The position numbers and the translations under genes were made by a program. The notes under the pieces were generated by a model. That model saw nothing but the letters and a program-made list of their open reading frames with translations, made no database searches and was not told where the DNA came from. Positions 27,956-36,991 of a stretch of 39,170 nt of DNA are shown piece after piece. Source of the DNA: Melioribacteraceae bacterium (GTDB taxonomy: Bacteria > Bacteroidota > Ignavibacteria > Ignavibacteriales > Melioribacteraceae); NCBI GenBank assembly GCA_021647785.1, contig JAKIUC010000042.1, forward strand, positions 1 to 39,170. Direction: 5' to 3'. Positions within the stretch are counted from its first letter, which is position 1, and every line of letters starts with the position of its first letter.

Positions 27956-28666
27956 ATGAAAATTGATTTTTTATGGAAAGGACTACTTTACATTTCAATG
28001 TCCTTTGTAATTATTGGGGGCATTTCGTTTCCTCTTGTTACAGAAGTTACAGAATGGTATCATTTCCCTTTCATTCCTGGACTTGGGGAGCAAGCCAAAA
28101 TTATTTTTTTCCACGTACCAACTGCTTGGATTGCAACCCTCTCGTTTTTACTTGCAATGGTATATGGAGTAAAATACTTAAGCAGTAATAATTTAGATGA
28201 TGATGCAAAATCCCTTGCAGCTCTGCAAATTGGGATGGTCTTTGTAATTCTTGCAACAGTAACTGGCTCTCTGTGGGCAAAATTTGCATGGGGTTCTTTC
28301 TGGCATTGGGATCCGAGAGAAACTTCTATTTTTGTTTTGCTCCTAATTTATGGCTCTTTATTTGCACTACGTTCTGCTATCGAAAATGAGGATAAAAGAG
28401 CAAAGCTTTCAGCAGTTTATTCAATAATTTCATTTTTAACTGTTCCATTTTTTGTCTTTATTATGCCAAGAATTATGGCTGGTTTACATCCAGGCTCTGC
28501 AAATGAGGATACTATAGGTCCAGTACTTGAATTGAAAATGAATGGAAATATGCAATTAATATTTTTCATCTCGTTAGCAGCATTTTCAATCTTATATTTC
28601 TGGATGTGGAGTATAACGTACAAATCAATAATAATTAAAGATAAACTTTCTAAGAAATATATTTGA
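27956..28666 (+). CDS. ccmC: Cytochrome c maturation protein CcmC (haem handling)
   Basis: 236 residues, six helices, with the tryptophan-rich haem-binding WWD motif WGSFWHWDPRE (112-122). The two external haem-ligand histidines are expected at H53 (FFHVPTAW) and H178 (GLHPGS). CcmC loads haem onto CcmE at the outer face of the inner membrane. The protein is close to the usual ~245 residues. It heads a tight ccmC-ccmD-ccmE-ccmF cluster: ccmD follows 7 bp after the stop. CcsA-type proteins also carry WWD motifs, but the neighbours settle the assignment. Confidence 0.93.
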   Translation: MKIDFLWKGLLYISMSFVIIGGISFPLVTEVTEWYHFPFIPGLGEQAKIIFFHVPTAWIATLSFLLAMVYGVKYLSSNNLDDDAKSLAALQIGMVFVILATVTGSLWAKFAWGSFWHWDPRETSIFVLLLIYGSLFALRSAIENEDKRAKLSAVYSIISFLTVPFFVFIMPRIMAGLHPGSANEDTIGPVLELKMNGNMQLIFFISLAAFSILYFWMWSITYKSIIIKDKLSKKYI

Positions 28667-28820: not shown

Positions 28821-29213
28821 ATGAAAAATAAATATTTTTTTGGCGGTTTTATAATAGTTGTATTTTTTGGAATTATGGGATATTTATTTACCCAAACAAA
28901 TATAAAATATGAAGAGGATTTTGCTCTAATTGAAAAAAGCAGTGGTACAATTAAAGCTACTGGAAGTTGGGTAAAAGAAAAAAAATATCAGATAGATAAA
29001 CAAAATCGGATATTCTCGTTTTATATGGAAGACCATAACGGGAAAGAGTTGAAAGTTATTTATAAAGGAGCAATTCCTAATAATTTTGAAGCTTCTACAA
29101 GTGTTGTGGTTACTGGCAAATATGAGAATGGTAAATTTTATGCTTCAGATATTTTAACAAAATGTCCATCCAAGTATGAAACTGAATATGAGGCAAGTCA
29201 AAAGACTTCATAA
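28821..29213 (+). CDS. ccmE: Haem chaperone CcmE, CxxxY variant
   Basis: 130 residues: N-terminal membrane anchor (FFGGFIIVVFFGIMGYLF, residues 6-23), then the OB-fold haem-carrier domain (IKATGSWV, FYMEDHNGKELKVIYKGAIP, SVVVTGKYENGKFYASDIL). At the haem attachment site the usual HxxxY is replaced by C115-P-S-K-Y119. CxxxY-type CcmE proteins, attaching haem through cysteine, are known from Desulfovibrio and archaea. CcmE receives haem from CcmC and passes it to the CcmF lyase. AGGAGG in the ccmD 3' end (from 28810) serves as ribosome binding site. A hairpin follows at 29231. Confidence 0.9.
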   Translation: MKNKYFFGGFIIVVFFGIMGYLFTQTNIKYEEDFALIEKSSGTIKATGSWVKEKKYQIDKQNRIFSFYMEDHNGKELKVIYKGAIPNNFEASTSVVVTGKYENGKFYASDILTKCPSKYETEYEASQKTS

Positions 29214-29299: not shown

Positions 29300-31711
29300 A
29301 TGGTTGGAAATATTCTTCTGACATTTGCTTTGTTGGCATCTGTTTTTTCCATTGTTATGTATTATCTAACTTACAGAGGTTATAGTAATACTTTAAAATT
29401 AGCACGTGCAAGTTACCACGCTACTGCAATTTCTGTGCTTGGGGCATCCGCTTACCTAATGAATGCTATCTTAAACCACCAGTATGAATTTAAGTATATT
29501 TACGATTACTCCAACAGCGACCTTTCACTCGGTATGCTGATGTCCACGTTTTATGCGGGTCAGGAAGGGAGTTTCATGCTTTGGCTTCTGCTAACTGCTT
29601 TATCGGGAATTGCACTACTTGAATATACATCGAAACATGGCGATTTGGAGAGCCGTGTGATGATGGTTTTTTCGTTAGCAACTGCATTTCTATTGGTGAT
29701 GGTAAGCCCTGGACTTAAAAATCCGTTTACACTAATTTGGTTAGACCCCACTTATGTTGCTATAAAAAATATTAACCAAACGTATTTATCACTTCCATTT
29801 CTTCAAGATTTTCTCTTTACTGATCAATCAACAAACGCCAGTTTAGTTTTAATAAATGAAAAATTGGCTGGTCTTCTTACAAGCAATGGTATTACCATAA
29901 ACGACTTTATTGCTTTTGGAAAAGGATTGAACCCATTACTAAATAATTTTTGGATGCAGATACACCCTCCATTCCTTTTTATTGGGTTTGCAATGTCAAC
30001 GGTTCCATTTGCATTTGCATTTGCTGCACTAATCAAAAATGATTATCACGATTGGGTTGCCCCTTCACTACCATGGCTGCTTGGTGCAATGATGGTGCTG
30101 GGTCTGGGAATAATGCTTGGCGGTTATTGGGCATATATAATTCTTGGTTGGGGTGGCTATTGGGGTTGGGATCCTGTTGAAAACTCATCACTTGTTCCTT
30201 GGATTATTGGTGTTGCAGGTGTACACACAATGCTGATTCAGAATAGAACCAAGACAAAAGAGCATCCTGGAAAATTTATTAAAACAAATTTAATATTATC
30301 AATATTAACATATTTGTTGGTGCTATACTCTACATTCCTAACTCGCAGTGGTGTACTTGGCGATGCTTCTGTACACTCTTTTTCCTCTCCAGGAATGGTA
30401 ACATATTTTTTACTTGCTCTTTTTATTGGAACTTTCACAATACTCGGATTTGGTGCAATAATTTACCGCTGGAAATATTTAGAAAAAACATTTACTGTTG
30501 AAGAGAACATTCTTTCTCGTGAATTAGCTCTCTTTACTGGTTCAGTTATGCTTATTGCTTCAGCCGTAATAATACTTGCAGGAACCTCGGCTCCAATTTT
30601 TGGCTCTGCTGTTGAGATAAGCTTTTACGATGATATGAATCTTCCAATTGCAATTTTAATGGGTTTACTTAATGGTGTTAGTCTAATTCTAAATTGGAAA
30701 AAGACAAAAGAGAAAACACTTATTGAAGGTTTGAAAATTCCGTTTGCAGTTACTTTTGTAATTACACTATTTACAGCACTTGTTGGCGGCTTCACAGAGG
30801 TAATGTCAATCATATTTCTCTTTTCAGCCTATTTTACACTTGTTGTAAATTCTATTATTGCTTATAAAGTATTTAAGGGAAACGCCTCGTTTGTTGGGGG
30901 TTACGTTACCCACATTGGCTTTGCTATATTTATGCTTGGAGTTATTGCAACTGGTTGGTTTTCAAAAGATTTACAAGTTGAACTGATAAAAGGGGAAACA
31001 AAATCAGCATTAGGTTTCGACCTTACTTTTATTGGTCATAATCCTATAGAAAATGGCAAAAAATTTGCTTTCAATATTGAGGTTAACGATAATGGTTCAA
31101 AATCGTACATTGCTCCTGTTATGTATATTTCAGATTTTAACCAAAGCCTAATGCGAGACCCCGATATAATAAATCTTGTTGTAAAAGATCTTTATGTTTC
31201 GCCAGTAAGTTTCGAGGAAGAAAAAATATCAAGCAGTAATGGACACGAACATGAAACTTCTCTTTCCAAAGGCGTCACTTTTGAATTTCATGATTCCAAA
31301 ATTACATTCACTAAATTCAACTTTCCGCAAAATGCAATGAACTCAATGCAATCTGGAACTGATTTTTATATTGGTGCTGTTCTTGAAATTATACATAATG
31401 GAAAAACATATAGTATTGAACCAAAGATGAAAAGTGTTGATGGAGAAAGAGTTTTTGAACATGTAACAATTGAAGAAGCAAACCTCAAAATTGAAATGGT
31501 AAATTTAGATGCTTCCGGAACAATTGATGTTGTAATTACTGAACTATCTGACGGTACAAATCACGAAACCCAAGTTACAAAAGGTGAATCTCTGTGGGTT
31601 GATGTTAGCGTTAAACCATTTATGAATCTTATATGGATTGGAACCTTTGTAATATCTCTTGGGTTTATTATTGCTATGGTTAGAAGAACAAAAGAAGCGA
31701 AGAGAACCTAA
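29300..31711 (+). CDS. ccmF: Cytochrome c haem lyase subunit CcmF
   Basis: 803 residues, longer than the ~650 of proteobacterial CcmF, with an extra loop (about 150-210) and an extended periplasmic C-terminal region. The WWD haem-binding motif GWGGYWGWDPVENSSLVPW spans 283-301. Other family blocks are YAGQEGSFMLWL (85-96), IHPPFLFIGF (221-230, with a haem-ligand His) and STFLTRSGVLGDASVHSF. CcmF carries the ligation step, joining CcmE-delivered haem to CXXCH cysteines of apocytochromes. ccmA, ccmB, ccmG and ccmH are absent from this cluster. GAAAGGA precedes the ATG. Confidence 0.95.
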   Translation: MVGNILLTFALLASVFSIVMYYLTYRGYSNTLKLARASYHATAISVLGASAYLMNAILNHQYEFKYIYDYSNSDLSLGMLMSTFYAGQEGSFMLWLLLTALSGIALLEYTSKHGDLESRVMMVFSLATAFLLVMVSPGLKNPFTLIWLDPTYVAIKNINQTYLSLPFLQDFLFTDQSTNASLVLINEKLAGLLTSNGITINDFIAFGKGLNPLLNNFWMQIHPPFLFIGFAMSTVPFAFAFAALIKNDYHDWVAPSLPWLLGAMMVLGLGIMLGGYWAYIILGWGGYWGWDPVENSSLVPWIIGVAGVHTMLIQNRTKTKEHPGKFIKTNLILSILTYLLVLYSTFLTRSGVLGDASVHSFSSPGMVTYFLLALFIGTFTILGFGAIIYRWKYLEKTFTVEENILSRELALFTGSVMLIASAVIILAGTSAPIFGSAVEISFYDDMNLPIAILMGLLNGVSLILNWKKTKEKTLIEGLKIPFAVTFVITLFTALVGGFTEVMSIIFLFSAYFTLVVNSIIAYKVFKGNASFVGGYVTHIGFAIFMLGVIATGWFSKDLQVELIKGETKSALGFDLTFIGHNPIENGKKFAFNIEVNDNGSKSYIAPVMYISDFNQSLMRDPDIINLVVKDLYVSPVSFEEEKISSSNGHEHETSLSKGVTFEFHDSKITFTKFNFPQNAMNSMQSGTDFYIGAVLEIIHNGKTYSIEPKMKSVDGERVFEHVTIEEANLKIEMVNLDASGTIDVVITELSDGTNHETQVTKGESLWVDVSVKPFMNLIWIGTFVISLGFIIAMVRRTKEAKRT

Positions 31712-31715
31712 AAAA

Positions 31716-31743
31716 CGGGTTACGGGTTACGGGTTACGGGTTA
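31716..31743 (+). repeat. Tandem heptamer (CGGGTTA)x4
   Basis: Four perfect copies of CGGGTTA, 4 bp after the ccmF stop and 2 bp before a terminator hairpin. Simple-sequence repeat of this type can change copy number by slippage. Confidence 0.9.
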
Positions 31744-31745
31744 CG

Positions 31746-31780: not shown

Positions 31781-33178
31781 TCACTCTAATATTAATCTTG
31801 TTATCTCTAACGTAAAAATTGTTCCTTGCGGTTTGTTATCAATTATCGTTATACTTCCACCCATTTTGTTCACAACAATTTTTACTAAGTTAAGTCCTAA
31901 TCCGTGTCCTTTAATTCCATTGCTTTCCACATTACTCCCTCTGTAGAATCTATCAAAAACCTTACTCTTTTCATTATCAGGAATTCCAATTCCATTATCA
32001 CAAACAGAAATAATTATACTATTAGTTTTCTCTTCAACAATAACTTTAACTTCACTTTTCTCTGAAGAATATTTAAGTGCATTATTAATTAAATTTTCTA
32101 AAACCATTTTAAAATAATCGGCTTCACCTTTTAGATAAATATTTTCAGGAATACTTATTGTAACACGATTATTTTTATCTTCTTCCATAATTTCATTCTG
32201 CAATAAATTTGTTAAGCTAAAAACTTTGCTGCTGTCAGTACATACGGCACAATCTTTAGCAAGTATTAATAGAGTTCTAACAATATTAATCATTTCTGAT
32301 GTTTGTTCATCAATAGTCTCTAATGTTTCTTTATATTCATCTGCCGAACGCTCTTTCTTAAGAATATACTCCAACTCTGTTTTAATAGCTGTTAGGGGAT
32401 TCATTAGTTGATGTGAAGCATTATCAGAGAATTGTGATATTTGGTTTATCTGGAATTCTAATCTGTTAAACAAATCATTAAGTGTTGCTTTCAATCTTCC
32501 TAATTCATCTTCAGTATCAGCCTCATAATCTATTCGGTTACTTAAATTTGTAGCAGTAATCTCCTCCGCTATTTCAATAATTTTGTTTATTGGTTTCAAA
32601 GACCGTTTTGCAAAAATAAGACTTACTATTAAAAAAAGAATAAACGCTAACGGAAGTGTTAATAAGTTGAAAGAAATAATACCTTCAATTGCACTATTAA
32701 CCGATGTTTTTGGCGTTGCAAGTTGGATGTAGCCCAATAGTTTCCCTTCATTGATGATTTTTGAATAACAAACTCTTAAGCCCTTAAAATCAACTTTTTC
32801 ATTCGTAAAAAGAAATTTATCATCAAATTCAATAATTCTAATTGGCAAATTTTGAAATGTTTCAAGGTTTTTGCTCTGAAATAATAATTCTTTATCAATA
32901 TTATAGATTTGAAGAAAGAAAGAATTATCAGATATATGTAGCATATCAAATTCTTCAAACTCTTTTCCATTAAGTACCACAATCGTATCTTCGTTAAATA
33001 CTATATTTACAGAAATATGTTCAACTTCGTGCTTTAATCTTGTATCAACATTATCTATAAAATAGTAGTTTATTTGCAGCACTGTAAAAAAATTAAAAAT
33101 CAGATACCCTATAAATAATACTACAGTAAAGATTGTAGCATTCTTTTTCACACTCTTTGTAATCAATGGTTTCTTCAT
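31781..33178 (-). CDS. Sensor histidine kinase (heavy-metal/CusS-like architecture)
   Basis: 465 residues from the ATG at 33178, five bases after the regulator stop; an in-frame ATG at 33214 would overlap the regulator by 32 bp. Architecture: helix 1 (16-36), a periplasmic domain of about 130 residues, helix 2 (168-190), HAMP (KRSLKPINKIIEIAEEIT onward), dimerisation and phosphotransfer helix with the phospho-acceptor His256 in SDNASHQLMNPLTAIKTEL, then a HATPase_c domain (N box ENLINNALKYSS, G1 CDNGIGIPD, G2 GHGLGLNLVK). The LxNPLTAIK pattern and layout resemble CusS/heavy-metal sensors, but the signal is unknown. With the regulator it forms an operon divergent from the octaheme cytochrome. 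Confidence 0.9.
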   Translation of the reverse strand: MKKPLITKSVKKNATIFTVVLFIGYLIFNFFTVLQINYYFIDNVDTRLKHEVEHISVNIVFNEDTIVVLNGKEFEEFDMLHISDNSFFLQIYNIDKELLFQSKNLETFQNLPIRIIEFDDKFLFTNEKVDFKGLRVCYSKIINEGKLLGYIQLATPKTSVNSAIEGIISFNLLTLPLAFILFLIVSLIFAKRSLKPINKIIEIAEEITATNLSNRIDYEADTEDELGRLKATLNDLFNRLEFQINQISQFSDNASHQLMNPLTAIKTELEYILKKERSADEYKETLETIDEQTSEMINIVRTLLILAKDCAVCTDSSKVFSLTNLLQNEIMEEDKNNRVTISIPENIYLKGEADYFKMVLENLINNALKYSSEKSEVKVIVEEKTNSIIISVCDNGIGIPDNEKSKVFDRFYRGSNVESNGIKGHGLGLNLVKIVVNKMGGSITIIDNKPQGTIFTLEITRLILE

Positions 33179-33182
33179 AATT

Positions 33183-33851
33183 TTAATTAGAGATAAATAA
33201 ATATCCCTCTCCATAAACCGACTTAATAAATTTATTACCAGTACATTCTTCTAATTTATTTCTAAGATGTTTTACTGTTACGTCCACAACATTTGTAGAT
33301 GGGGAAAACTTTAACTTCCAAACATCTTCGCAAAGAGTTTCCCTACTAATTATCTCCTCTCTATTTTCCAAAAAATATTTGAGTAATTCAAACTCCATTT
33401 CAGGAAGTTTAATTGATTCAGTTTCTGTTTCAAGAATATGTGTAATAAGATTTAGAGACAAATTGTTAAATTCAATTACATTTTTCGAAAACTTATCTCT
33501 TCTTATTATGGCATTTACTCTTGCAAGTACTTCTTCAAACGAGAATGGTTTTGTTACATAATCATCAGCTCCACAATTTAGAGCTTCAACTTTGTTGGTA
33601 AGGTTTGTTAATGCAGTAAGTAAAATAATTGGGGTTTGGTTATTTGCACTCCTAATTCTCTTGCAAACATTTATACCTGTTACCTTTGGTAGTCTCCAAT
33701 CTAAAAGAATTAAATCGAACTTTTCTTTTGAAACAATATCAAGAGCTGTAGCCCCATCATAACAAAGAGTAGTTTTAAAGCCTTCATCATTAAAATTTTT
33801 CTTTAATGAGTTAGCAATTTTTTTTTCATCCTCTACAATTAATATCTTCAT
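33183..33851 (-). CDS. OmpR/CusR-type response regulator
   Basis: 222 residues from the ATG at 33851. GGAAG five bases upstream decides for it over the ATG at 33866. Receiver domain: acidic pocket VEDE (6-9), phospho-acceptor D51 in LILLDWRLP, switch residue T in LLTALT and K in DDYVTKPF. The C-terminal winged helix ends with VVDVTVKHLRNKLEE and FIKSVYGEGYLF, the OmpR/PhoB pattern. It is the first gene of the regulator-kinase pair. Dyads in the 33867-34006 gap could be its binding sites, which would make the cytochrome and its own operon the likely targets. Confidence 0.93.
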   Translation of the reverse strand: MKILIVEDEKKIANSLKKNFNDEGFKTTLCYDGATALDIVSKEKFDLILLDWRLPKVTGINVCKRIRSANNQTPIILLTALTNLTNKVEALNCGADDYVTKPFSFEEVLARVNAIIRRDKFSKNVIEFNNLSLNLITHILETETESIKLPEMEFELLKYFLENREEIISRETLCEDVWKLKFSPSTNVVDVTVKHLRNKLEECTGNKFIKSVYGEGYLFISN

Positions 33852-33866
33852 TTTACTTCCCTTCAT

Positions 33867-34006
33867 AAATCAAATATATGAAATATCATTTAAAAAGTGT
33901 TTAATAGAATTGTGAAAAATTTTTCATAATTATTTCCTTTCAAAGAGCAAACAACATTTTTACATTATGAATGTAAATTTAATTAATTAACAATATGGAG
34001 GATGTA
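33867..34006. promoter_or_regulatory. Divergent control region with two dyads
   Basis: The gap between the response regulator (minus) and the octaheme cytochrome (plus). TGAAAAATTTTTCA (33913-33926) is a perfect 14-bp palindrome. TTTACATT-ATG-AATGTAAA (33959-33977) is an 8-bp inverted repeat 30 bp before the cytochrome ATG. OmpR-family regulators bind paired half-sites, so either could be an operator. Unproven. Confidence 0.4.
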
Positions 34007-35962
34007 ATGAAAAAAGCATTACTAATTTTATTATCACTTTTCTTTGCTTCAAATTTTATTTTTTCACAAACTTTTGTTGGTCCAGAAAAGTGCATGCAAT
34101 GTCATAGCAATATGTCTGGCTGGAGAACATCACTACATGCAAATGGATTTTCAGTAGTTTTGGACGACTCAAAAACAATGCAGCCGCTATATGGTGTGGT
34201 TAACGATTATGATGACAACGGCATTGATGATTTTCATGATGGATTGAATTTCAATGATATCTCGAGTGTTTTTGATCCATTTAAACCTAATGCACCTATT
34301 CTCGCATATTCAGCTGCGGCTGGATATACGGTTACTATTGGTGAAGTAACAAGCAGGGTACACTTAACATACGGTACTGCTCTTTTTAAACAGCGTTATG
34401 CATTAAAGATGCCATCTGCAAGTGGTGCACTTTCAGCAGATCTTTACATTGGTCCTATTCAATATAATGATAAAAATCATAGTTATGCTCTTTACAATGC
34501 TCAAGTTTGGTGGGTTTATGTTGATGGACAACCAACTAACGAACCAATTTTTACCGCAGCATCTACATTGGCAGATATAGCTACGAATAAGAAAAGTATA
34601 TCAAAAGGTTGTATGGGCTGTCACACCACAGGATTTGTAGTGAATCCTAAAGATGCTAATGGAGAGTGGACGATGACAGGCGGTGCAATTGACCCTGCCA
34701 CAGTGGGAATGTACACTGATAATAACATTTATGATTTTGATGGAGACGGCGTTAAAGAACAAATGAACACTGGTTGTGAATCATGCCACGGAGCTGGCAG
34801 CGATCATGCTTCTACTCCTACAAAGGATAATATTATTAATCCACTTACTGATTTAACGGCTGAACAAGGAAATAACCTATGCGGAATGTGCCACAACAGA
34901 GGTAAAAGTAAACCAAACAATACTTTTAGTTATCCTTATGATGATGCAAATATGCAAGGTTGGGCTATTGGTGATATGGTTACAGATTACTTTACAGATG
35001 GCGGCGGCTATTATGGTGATAAAGTATCTGACGGACCTAAGAGTTCAAAAAAACATCGCCAGCAATTTCTTGATTTTTACCAATCAAGCAAACCTACTTT
35101 TCAATACAAAAATGTAACATGTTTCGATTGCCATGATGTTCATAATGATAACAAACACCACATGCGAAGAGAAATTGTAGAAGATGACTCAACAGGAGCG
35201 GAACTAATTATTGCTACTGATAACGATAACAATACTCTTTGTTTAGCTTGCCACGCTACACATGGCGATTTTGAGGCAATAACAAAAGAGATGGTTGCAG
35301 ACTATGATAATAACGTAACAGGAATTGGAGAAATTGTATCGGCACATACAAACCATAGTTACGATCCGGAAAACGGTCCTTCAAGATGTAGCAAATGTCA
35401 TAATCCTAAAACAATTAAAAGTGCTTTACCTTATGATATTCATTCTCATACTTTTGAAGCAATACCACCTCAAAAAACGAATGAATTTGCAATGCCAAAC
35501 TCATGTTCAGTAAGCTGCCACAGAAGTATAGAGAATAGTGCAACACCAATGTTTAATACTGGTGTGGATGCTTCCCTTACCGATTGGAGTGAAGCTTCTG
35601 ATGTAGCCCTTGCAACAAAGTTGATGGAATACTATGGACCAGATGGTTCTTGGTGGAATCATACAGTTAGTGTTGAAAGGATTTCTAATAATATTCCTTC
35701 TGAGTTTGTACTTGGTCAAAACTACCCAAATCCATTTAACCCAACTACATCAATCGATTTTTCAATTACACAACAAAGTGATGTAAACATTACAGTATAT
35801 AACGCTGTTGGGCAAGCAGTAGAAGTATTAGTTAATGATAACGTACCTGCTGGTACTTATAAAATAAACTGGAATGCCTCAAGATTTGCAAGTGGTGTTT
35901 ACTTCTACAGAATGGATGCCGGCGAATTTGTAAAAACTCAGAAAATGATTCTGCTTAAATAG
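34007..35962 (+). CDS. Octaheme c-type cytochrome with T9SS sorting domain
   Basis: 651 residues from the ATG at 34007; GGAGG at 33997-34001 decides against the ATG at 33995. A signal peptide (MKKALLILLSLFFASNFIFS) is followed by seven CXXCH sites at residues 29-33, 202-206, 257-261, 292-296, 372-376, 412-416 and 461-465, plus a CX3CH site (C500-S-V-S-C504-H505). CX3CH has been seen as a variant haem-c site in other multihaem proteins. Asp/Asn-rich spacers such as YDDNGIDDF and YDFDGDGVKE look like Ca2+-binding loops. The C-terminus (from ~565) is a T9SS type A domain, with QNYPNPFNPTTS. The protein would be matured by Ccm in the periplasm, then exported to the surface, where it could move electrons to external acceptors. 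The reaction is unknown. Confidence 0.9.
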   Translation: MKKALLILLSLFFASNFIFSQTFVGPEKCMQCHSNMSGWRTSLHANGFSVVLDDSKTMQPLYGVVNDYDDNGIDDFHDGLNFNDISSVFDPFKPNAPILAYSAAAGYTVTIGEVTSRVHLTYGTALFKQRYALKMPSASGALSADLYIGPIQYNDKNHSYALYNAQVWWVYVDGQPTNEPIFTAASTLADIATNKKSISKGCMGCHTTGFVVNPKDANGEWTMTGGAIDPATVGMYTDNNIYDFDGDGVKEQMNTGCESCHGAGSDHASTPTKDNIINPLTDLTAEQGNNLCGMCHNRGKSKPNNTFSYPYDDANMQGWAIGDMVTDYFTDGGGYYGDKVSDGPKSSKKHRQQFLDFYQSSKPTFQYKNVTCFDCHDVHNDNKHHMRREIVEDDSTGAELIIATDNDNNTLCLACHATHGDFEAITKEMVADYDNNVTGIGEIVSAHTNHSYDPENGPSRCSKCHNPKTIKSALPYDIHSHTFEAIPPQKTNEFAMPNSCSVSCHRSIENSATPMFNTGVDASLTDWSEASDVALATKLMEYYGPDGSWWNHTVSVERISNNIPSEFVLGQNYPNPFNPTTSIDFSITQQSDVNITVYNAVGQAVEVLVNDNVPAGTYKINWNASRFASGVYFYRMDAGEFVKTQKMILLK

Positions 35963-36005: not shown

Positions 36006-36040
36006 AAAACCCTCTCTAACATTGTGTTAGAGAGGGTTTT
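36006..36040. terminator. Strong bidirectional terminator
   Basis: 16-bp perfect stem AAAACCCTCTCTAACA / TGTTAGAGAGGGTTTT with a 3-base loop, and T-runs on both strands. It lies between the convergent cytochrome and arginase genes. Confidence 0.95.
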
Positions 36041-36064: not shown

Positions 36065-36991
36065 TTATAGAATTCTCTTTCCCATACTGGATGCAACAAG
36101 CTCGGCAGCAAACTCGGCACTTCTATTTTTATTATCGAGAATTGGATTTGTCTCAGCAATTTCAAGTGATGCCATACAGCCACACTCCGCAATTGTTTCC
36201 ATAATTAGATGTGTTTCGCGGTAACTTAAACCGCCAGGAACGGGAGTTCCAACACCAGGGGCAACATCAGGGTCAACAGAATCGAGGTCAAAACTTACGT
36301 GTATGTGATCAACACGTTCTTTTAACTCTTTTAGAATTTTAGTGATAATAAAGTTTATTCCTTTTCTATCAATATCTGTCATTGTATAAACTTGAAGGTT
36401 TAGATCCTGAATTGTTTTTCTCTCTCTCGAATCAATACTTCGTATTCCAAGTAATGCAATATTTTCTGGCTCTACTTTTGGGGCAAAGCCTTTGATGTGA
36501 GTAAGAGCTTCATTTCCTAATCCGAGAGCAGCAGCAACTGGCATACCATGAATATTGCCCGAAGGAGTAGTCTCTTCGGTGTTCATATCGGAGTGTGCAT
36601 CAATCCAAATTACTCCAAGTCTTTTATTGCTCTTTTTACAATGAGCTGCAATACCTGCAATTGAACCAAGTGCAATTGAATGGTCGCCCCCAAGACAGAG
36701 TGGGAAATGTCCAGCATCTAAAGACTTTTCAACCATTAAAGCAAGTTCCTCAGAGGTTTTAACAATCTCCTTTAAGTACTTCAATTTTGTATGTTTAACA
36801 GATTGCTTCTCTTGATTCTGAATATAGATATCGCCCAAATCAACAACATCATAACCCATTTTAATTAGTTTGTTCTCAATGCCAGCAATCCTCAATGCTG
36901 ATGCACCCATATCAACGCCACGCCTATCAGCACCAAGGTCCATAGGAAATCCGATTACATCAATTCGTTTTGTGTTTTTTACTTTATTCAT
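36065..36991 (-). CDS. rocF: Arginase
   Basis: 308 residues, the usual length. The ureohydrolase Mn2+ motifs are all present: GGDHS (101-105), DAHSD (131-135) and SFDLDSVDPD (233-242). The NTEETTPSGNIHGMPVA block is the arginase form (N-T-x-x-T-x-x-S-G-N-x-H-G-M-P) that binds the arginine alpha-amino/carboxyl end, rather than agmatinase. The N-terminal GFPMDLGADRRGVDMGASALR is also typical. It hydrolyses L-arginine to ornithine and urea in the cytosol and feeds polyamine or proline synthesis. Monocistronic, with a strong terminator downstream and the purine permease divergent. Confidence 0.93.
   Translation of the reverse strand: MNKVKNTKRIDVIGFPMDLGADRRGVDMGASALRIAGIENKLIKMGYDVVDLGDIYIQNQEKQSVKHTKLKYLKEIVKTSEELALMVEKSLDAGHFPLCLGGDHSIALGSIAGIAAHCKKSNKRLGVIWIDAHSDMNTEETTPSGNIHGMPVAAALGLGNEALTHIKGFAPKVEPENIALLGIRSIDSRERKTIQDLNLQVYTMTDIDRKGINFIITKILKELKERVDHIHVSFDLDSVDPDVAPGVGTPVPGGLSYRETHLIMETIAECGCMASLEIAETNPILDNKNRSAEFAAELVASSMGKRIL

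Follow-up and report, generated by a model that had tools for sequence, protein, structure and literature searches.

We analysed a 39,170-nt stretch of DNA from a Melioribacteraceae bacterium (contig JAKIUC010000042.1; hereafter the window), which is the entire contig C91 of a 4.25-Mb genome that is 99% complete. The window encodes an octahaem c-type cytochrome that is homologous to the surface cytochrome OcwA, carries a C-terminal tail of the type IX secretion system (T9SS) and is divergent from the genes of a two-component system. The whole is probably best explained by a surface-displayed electron-transfer cytochrome with its own switch. According to this explanation, cytochrome c maturation (Ccm) proteins would attach haem in the periplasm, after which the T9SS would export the folded haem protein and fix it on the outer face, where it would be the terminal carrier or reductase, of the OcwA type, that serves an external acceptor. 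The cytochrome would receive electrons from the quinol pool via a NapC/NrfH-related cytochrome and a porin-cytochrome conduit, i.e., the T9SS would carry the protein and the conduit the electrons, while the divergent OmpR-type pair would sense a cue and act on a 28-bp element before the gene. The evidence lies in the sequence: the haem motifs, the T9SS tail, the homology to OcwA, the element and its association with the regulator pair, and the conduit-type genes. Below, G numbers denote genomes of the family set (the present genome being G000), L numbers denote loci and C numbers contigs of G000. The features of the window are as follows.

33995-35962, plus strand: octahaem c-type cytochrome, OcwA homologue, with an N-terminal signal and a T9SS tail; likely start at 34007 (start and signal judged by eye)
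34091-35521, plus strand: span of the eight haem motifs, with CXXCH at 34091, 34610, 34775, 34880, 35120, 35240 and 35387 and CX3CH at 35504-35521 (converted from residue numbers)
35723-35950, plus strand: T9SS type A sorting domain, residues 577-652, from family-model matches
33913-33940, plus strand: 28-bp conserved element upstream of the cytochrome gene, the proposed regulator site, from sequence comparison
33183-33866, minus strand: OmpR-type response regulator (Response_reg and Trans_reg_C)
31781-33214, minus strand: histidine kinase (HAMP, HisKA and HATPase_c)
27956-28666, plus strand: ccmC-like cytochrome c maturation gene (TIGR01191, 106.9 bits, below the cut-off of 186)
28821-29213, plus strand: ccmE (PF03100, 62.1 bits over a cut-off of 24.6)
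29300-31711, plus strand: ccmF/nrfE-type haem lyase (PF16327, 93.4 bits over a cut-off of 28.7)
36010-36036, plus strand: likely terminator of the cytochrome gene, a 12-bp stem with a 3-base loop followed by a T-rich stretch, read from the sequence

An earlier preliminary description of this DNA had placed the open reading frames (ORFs) and the 128-bp gap between regulator and cytochrome (33867-33994) correctly. Because a GGAGG directly precedes the ATG at 34007, we suggest that translation starts there, which would give a protein of 651 residues and a gap of 140 bp. The ccmC-ccmE-ccmF genes adjoin the kinase gene on its far side from the cytochrome.

The cytochrome has CXXCH motifs at residues 33, 206, 261, 296, 376, 416 and 465 and a CX3CH motif at residue 504, and its tail matches both PF18962 (42.2 bits; cut-off 27) and TIGR04183 (44.5 bits; cut-off 23), in agreement with the seven CXXCH sites, one CX3CH site and T9SS domain described previously. 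A scan of a public genome collection with the single protein as query gave no match, unlike an alignment-based search, which returned 65 matching loci. We read 46 of these (L045-L090) for gene context and aligned 39 with the window protein, leaving out cut-off sequences (L051, L064, L067, L073, L083, L085 and L089) and distant ones (L091-L109). Across the resulting 40 sequences, the eight haem sites are nearly invariant, beyond chance. Sites 2 to 7 are CXXCH in 40/40 and site 1 in 39/40, the exception being L050, whose start codon was called late. At site 8, 37 sequences have CX3CH and the other three (L061, L086 and L088) have CXXCH. According to their record titles, the 39 loci belong to Ignavibacteriales, Melioribacteraceae, Chlorobiota, Bacteroidetes, Calditrichota, KSB1, Neomarinimicrobiota, Cloacimonetes, Acidobacteriota and a few more, with the proviso that bin labels may err (L053 bears the title Actinomycetota but closely resembles L054, a Calditrichota record). 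Nine of the 39 match contigs of the family genomes in length (L046, L047, L050, L056, L066, L074, L075, L076 and L081); because of these probable overlaps, and of near-copies such as L048/L049 and L053/L054, the alignment counts are not independent events. Within the family, the octahaem is present in 10 of 79 genomes, G000 included.

In some Neomarinimicrobiota (L062, L067 and L082), a single long frame encodes both the octahaem and another multihaem part, with 15 to 23 CXXCH motifs. A second nonahaem cytochrome of approximately 850-930 residues recurs near the octahaem (L045:4136-6871, L054:76-2688, L070:850-3537, L077, L083, L090 and L126:5209-7968), and both copies that were scanned, those of L045 and L126, have T9SS tails. 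A search of G000 for a nonahaem homologue yielded three weak matches. Each of them falls in the C-terminal stretch of the query (residues 593-740 of 740), and none reaches its haem part.

A profile built from 38 sequences was searched against the sequences of solved structures with a threshold of E up to 0.001. It matched two structures in all, OcwA of Thermincola potens (E 1.9e-28) and an undecahaem cytochrome of Carboxydothermus ferrireducens (E 9.1e-6). A structure model of the window cytochrome (mean predicted local distance difference test score, pLDDT, 86.5; predicted template-modelling score 0.74) resembles the same two proteins, with predicted superpositions of Z 18.5 and a root-mean-square deviation (rmsd) of 5.2 over 364 residues at 22% identity for OcwA (PDB 6i5b), and Z 11.8 and rmsd 3.4 over 277 residues for the undecahaem (PDB 6qvm). 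The top Foldseek rows for the model are Ig-like domains of approximately 100 residues. According to its published description (PMC6703420), OcwA is a terminal reductase at the cell surface in which two haems have an open site, each beneath a His-His pair, and the last haem has His-Met ligation; it reduces nitrite and hydroxylamine slowly. In our alignment, His354 coincides with the first histidine of the OcwA haem-2 pocket (HH281/282) and is His in 38/40 sequences; the next position is His in 33/40 and Arg in 5/40. Met500, ahead of the CX3CH motif, is kept in 39/40. Haem 2 of the window protein may thus possibly be open, and its last haem His-Met-ligated. Eight histidines outside the motifs are kept in 37-40 of the 40 sequences (48, 271, 354, 383, 423, 451, 454 and 485), which had hinted at a pure wire in which all haems are bis-histidine-ligated; that reading was dropped as unproven because the OcwA alignment places His354 in the distal pocket. 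As to which OcwA haem is lacking, two MAFFT modes omit haem 7 and the spacing also permits loss of haem 5, and a local phmmer search with the haem 5-8 stretch gave weak matches (best E 0.1).

An open haem 2 under a His pocket, as in OcwA, leads to a different proposal for the protein, namely an enzyme on the surface that acts on a soluble substrate, be it nitrite, hydroxylamine or some other small oxidant, and not a wire to solids. The conservation of the two pocket positions and the slow nitrite and hydroxylamine reduction ascribed to OcwA (PMC6703420) fit such a role, but the window protein has Arg at position 355, and no substrate-specific gene recurs by the octahaem in the 46 loci, which were read by eye with genes partly annotated. 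Because OcwA combines both abilities, electron export would still be compatible with this role, and we consider a dedicated soluble-substrate enzyme possible but not likely.

The window protein does not match the OmcA/MtrC decahaem family (TIGR03507) or octahaem tetrathionate reductase (TIGR04315) at E up to 0.001, and a score of 31.8 bits over a cut-off of 30 for the MtrC/MtrF domain PF22113 is a local match across haem motifs. In the octahaem sulfite reductase MccA, haem 2 is bound by CX15CH; this site is CXXCH in all 40 aligned sequences.

With respect to export, carriage by the T9SS was proposed previously and is upheld as far as sequence goes: the octahaem has the predicted cargo tag, and G000 encodes SprA (as a single 2294-residue frame), two matches to C25 peptidases, which we infer to be of the PorU type, and at least 150 further T9SS-tail matches. 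The tail is found in 35/40 aligned homologues. It is absent from four Acidobacteriota sequences (L072, L078, L080 and L084, one titled Solibacteraceae) and from L088, titled Deltaproteobacteria, which by eye has a lipoprotein-like start; since some homologues have no tail, the haem core is more widely spread than the tail. The modelled tail superposes on the T9SS tails 8qb1 (Z 8.7, rmsd 2.4, 77 residues aligned) and 8glk (Z 8.1, rmsd 2.5, 75 aligned). The tail could in principle be vestigial or a mere fold module on a protein that stays in the periplasm, and the tail-less Acidobacteriota homologues do keep the same haem sites. However, retention of the tail in 35/40, the origin of all five tail-less homologues from record phyla other than the tailed ones and the presence of SprA in the genome make a periplasmic protein very unlikely. 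The haem part has no second match in G000 at E up to 0.01. G000 does have a second T9SS-tagged multihaem protein (L039:6266-7948 on contig C87, 560 residues with 8 CXXCH), around which a 14-kb stretch has no site of the 28-bp element within 4 mismatches.

The preliminary description had set carriage of the protein by the T9SS against a porin-cytochrome conduit. This contrast is not supported, because protein export and electron export are different steps, and G000 has two candidate conduits. On contig C12, genes for a 4-haem protein, a 436-residue protein, a 14-haem protein, a 6-haem protein and an NrfH-related protein lie in a row; by eye, the 436-residue protein is a barrel candidate and the 6-haem protein has a lipoprotein signal, which our script did not flag. 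Contig C25 has genes for a 20-haem protein, a 28-haem protein and a 530-residue barrel candidate in a row (L036:3171-8476), the latter two sharing approximately 50% identity with proteins encoded next to the L081 octahaem. Porin-cytochrome clusters have been reported for Ignavibacteria before (PMC4245776, PMC7399161). For each of the five C12 proteins, at least one locus with the octahaem encodes a homologue (NrfH-related 47-68% identity, 6-haem 37-38%, 4-haem 38-48%, 14-haem 33%, and the barrel 27% over a cut-off fragment and 28% over 388 residues in L077), and no single locus shows all five. G032 has the octahaem and homologues of four of them (4-haem, barrel, 14-haem and 6-haem) on one 17-kb contig, and in L077 a nonahaem, the octahaem and homologues of the 6-haem, barrel and 14-haem proteins follow one another in one direction. 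In the Acidobacteriota loci, the octahaem, a barrel candidate of 610-667 residues and a decahaem stand together on one strand in 4/4 cases. Against the DmsE family (cut-off 192.2 bits), these decahaems score 201.3 (L078), 201.1 (L080) and 154.3 bits (L084), while that of L072 is a homologue at 37%; three of the four barrel candidates have weak matches to the GSU2204 family. In several Calditrichota and KSB1 loci, the octahaem has NapC/NrfH-related cytochromes as neighbours, along with further multihaem proteins and barrel candidates. Because relatives encode the octahaem beside conduit-type genes, homologues of the C12 parts, we read the T9SS and the conduit as partners, with the C12 cluster as the best candidate for the conduit.

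Gene context also bears on the direction of electron flow. The surface cytochrome might instead pass electrons inwards, with Fe(II), an electrode or a partner cell as their source, since direction is not fixed by sequence and a mono-haem protein with a barrel-like look (judged by eye) lies beside the pair in G016. However, the octahaem of relatives has NapC/NrfH-related quinol-type cytochromes and a cytochrome b-type protein nearby (the latter together with a 9-haem protein in L027/L074 and, by eye, likewise in L054), and OcwA is described as a reductase (PMC6703420). We therefore regard electron uptake as unlikely. A NiFe hydrogenase lies near the octahaem in L068.

For regulation, the divergent neighbours form an OmpR-type two-component system, with a receiver and Trans_reg_C in the regulator and HAMP, HisKA and HATPase domains in the kinase. 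The kinase scores below the cut-offs of PorY of the T9SS regulator PorXY (NF052314, 114.4 vs. 350) and of the heavy-metal sensor kinases CztS/SilS/CopS (TIGR01386, 184.9 vs. 292.55). A match to it at E up to 1e-60 was found in 11 of 16 genomes tested, three of which have no octahaem (G002, G008 and G016); among the ten octahaem genomes it is missing from G003 and G034. Counting G012 and G018, the pair is present in 13 genomes, and a complete T9SS multihaem gene adjoins it (two genes away in G016) in 10/10 genomes whose contig shows one. The other three are G001, with a 93-residue N-terminal fragment beside the pair, G073, for which the placement was made from contig ends that look alike by eye, and G012. 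In G002, G008 and G018, which have no octahaem, other T9SS multihaem proteins occupy the slot, and the tails of replacing proteins are above the cut-off in 5/5 scanned. Judged by gene order, the pair accompanies the slot and not the octahaem.

The same slot contains the 28-bp element. Its pattern was derived from six regulator-octahaem gaps sharing a block, so that sites in those six genomes are there by construction. Identity of the element is 84% between pairs of 13 promoters (78 pairs), compared to 41% in the flanks, six of these promoters having given the pattern and all 13 having been chosen by it. In G000, the element occurs once at 0 mismatches, before the cytochrome; at 3 mismatches there are two more sites, equal to the reversed-control count. 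A search of 20 family genomes with up to 2 mismatches, before which one pattern position had been relaxed after an earlier search, gave 19 sites in 14 genomes and none in the reversed control. Seven sites are in the six source genomes and 12 elsewhere; of the latter, 8 are located upstream of haem-protein genes, 3 (two in G016, one in G044) fall within or overlap unrelated genes and look like chance matches, and 1, in G012, is at a contig end, the contig stopping just past it. The haem-protein genes concerned are those for an N-terminal fragment of a nonahaem homologue, the octahaem and a putative di-haem lipoprotein in G001 (the longest ORF call for the latter overlaps the site), two T9SS nonahaems in G002, the octahaem in G003 and a T9SS 8-haem protein each in G008 and G018. 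At 4 mismatches the element is also seen before a T9SS 8-haem gene in G016 and before the octahaem in G073.

Among the public loci, three of the 46 had too little upstream DNA, leaving 43. Wherever an OmpR-type pair stands beside the octahaem, the element is present on the plus strand with 0-5 mismatches (7/7), including two loci not used for its derivation (L052 with 4 and L064 with 5 mismatches, with the element at 94-97 nt). L046, L050 and L076 have it at 2, 1 and 4 mismatches, respectively. Of the remaining 33 loci, 32 are at 7 or more mismatches and L081 is at 5, on the opposite strand; because L081 scores 5 too, the L064 site is backed by its place and strand and not by its score. Approximately 11 loci outside the OmpR-pair group have another, longer regulator near the octahaem that is NtrC-like by length and tail (by eye).

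Dyads in the gap had been noted previously as well. On their own they are not significant, the best arm being reached in 389/2000 shuffles and the best loop-free arm in 140/2000, and the exact dyad at 33959-33977 is in none of the other 12 promoters; by contrast, the dyad at 33913-33926 is part of the conserved element. When up to 3 mismatches are allowed, the window has 2 matches to a 21-bp portion of the element, and 27/100 shuffles give at least 2. We also considered a direct repeat within the element, which is not claimed because no offset stands out (best 7-mer identity 0.70, 0.69 and 0.70 at offsets 10, 11 and 12).

The proposal that the neighbouring pair regulates the cytochrome thus stands as far as sequence goes, in that the element accompanies the pair across genomes. 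The pair might instead control the ccm genes or itself alone, with the element belonging to another factor. The ccm genes flank the pair in 10/12 resolvable genomes, G005 not being counted, which would suit such an arrangement; one or two genes intervene in G006, G016 and G048, and in G032 and G073 the ccm genes are not beside the pair. However, the genes at the G018 locus all share one orientation, with the element located between those for the kinase and the cytochrome, so that it belongs to the cytochrome; it precedes a T9SS multihaem gene even there, where the pair is not divergent. The element also stands before a second cytochrome in G002, and its sole 0-mismatch site in G000 is before the cytochrome, and we consider control of ccm or of the pair alone quite unlikely.

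From these data, we tentatively propose, as an idea slightly more likely to prove wrong than right, that Ignavibacteria and related phyla regularly use the T9SS to export respiratory multihaem cytochromes. The slot beside ccmCEF and a dedicated OmpR-type pair would, in Ignavibacteria, be an exchangeable one and hold interchangeable T9SS multihaem proteins (octahaem, nonahaem and short octahaems) read from the same 28-bp element, which would replace MtrC-type lipoproteins as the outer end of the conduit.

Several observations weigh against the explanation that we prefer, that of a surface cytochrome with its own switch. Just 10 of the 79 family genomes carry the octahaem. The conduits of G000 sit on other contigs than the octahaem, the barrel candidates have no family match in model scans, and one barrel model (L077 and three relatives) has a pLDDT of 33. 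The window protein has Arg355 where 33/40 carry His beside His354. The tail is itself a prediction, is lacking in the four Acidobacteriota homologues and one other, and has a structural match that is not specific, as unrelated Ig-like domains score equally. For the switch, G003 has the octahaem and the element and no kinase match, G034 has the octahaem and neither (no element within 4 mismatches), the kinase of G032 is split into two frames, and another factor could read the element. The parts of the explanation that we infer are the location at the surface, the binding by the regulator, and the path, direction and acceptor of the electrons.

The tail names a testable route by which these phyla may place haem proteins on the surface for extracellular respiration. 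If the explanation is true, the T9SS moves a folded protein with eight attached haems. The combination of haem motifs and T9SS tail offers a simple genome marker for electroactive bacteria that may be overlooked when genomes are searched for lipoproteins and porins, and the regulator and its element provide a handle for finding the inducing signal. A link between the T9SS and multihaem cytochromes was not found in the literature searched, which lacked most subscription journals and preprints; a secretome paper on Methylococcus names both the T9SS and c-type cytochromes (PMC4257694). Our data suggest a little-noticed way of placing respiratory wiring on the cell surface.

Some further features were noted in passing. 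In the window, GGGTTAC occurs four times in tandem at 31717-31744, between ccmF and the kinase gene (by eye), 22132-23154 matches 1,9-bis(guanidino)-5-aza-nonane synthase (NF002699, 577 over 500), and an arginase-family gene is at 36065-36991. In many Calditrichota and KSB1 loci an ORF of 118-145 residues lies just upstream of the octahaem (L048:7515-7901, L060:4485-4880 and others); the one scanned is receiver-domain-like (PF00072, 29.7 bits vs. a cut-off of 30.2). In G016 (L130:10691-12417), a 434-residue protein that has a single CXXCH in its N-terminal part is encoded, along with a small mono-haem protein, between the pair and the T9SS 8-haem gene; by eye the former looks like a fused cytochrome-porin, and it has no NCBIfam match.

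Compared to known systems, the cytochrome resembles T9SS type A cargo (PF18962/TIGR04183) in having a tail above both cut-offs, but the cargo here is a multihaem cytochrome. It shares with porin-cytochrome conduits (MtrABC, Pcc) a setting beside a decahaem and a barrel candidate in all four Acidobacteriota loci (with DmsE above the cut-off in two) and with multihaem and barrel candidates in Calditrichota and KSB1; it differs in that the outer cytochrome has a T9SS tail and falls outside the MtrC/OmcA family, and in that the conduit genes are elsewhere in G000. With the undecahaem S-layer cytochrome of C. ferrireducens it has weaker homology and, as a prediction here and going by the PDB title there, a surface location in common, whereas that protein has more haems, no T9SS tail and a Gram-positive host. 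The closest likeness is to OcwA, with a homologous haem core, His354 aligned with the haem-2 pocket and a Met-Pro before the last haem motif in both. OcwA has nine haems, however, and because the window protein and the aligned family have eight motifs, we regard them as relatives and not orthologues of OcwA; here, moreover, the last motif is CX3CH, a T9SS tail is present and there is a Gram-negative type envelope to cross. On its predicted features, we file the protein as a variant of the OcwA-like surface cytochromes with eight haems, a CX3CH motif, a T9SS tail and its own regulator.

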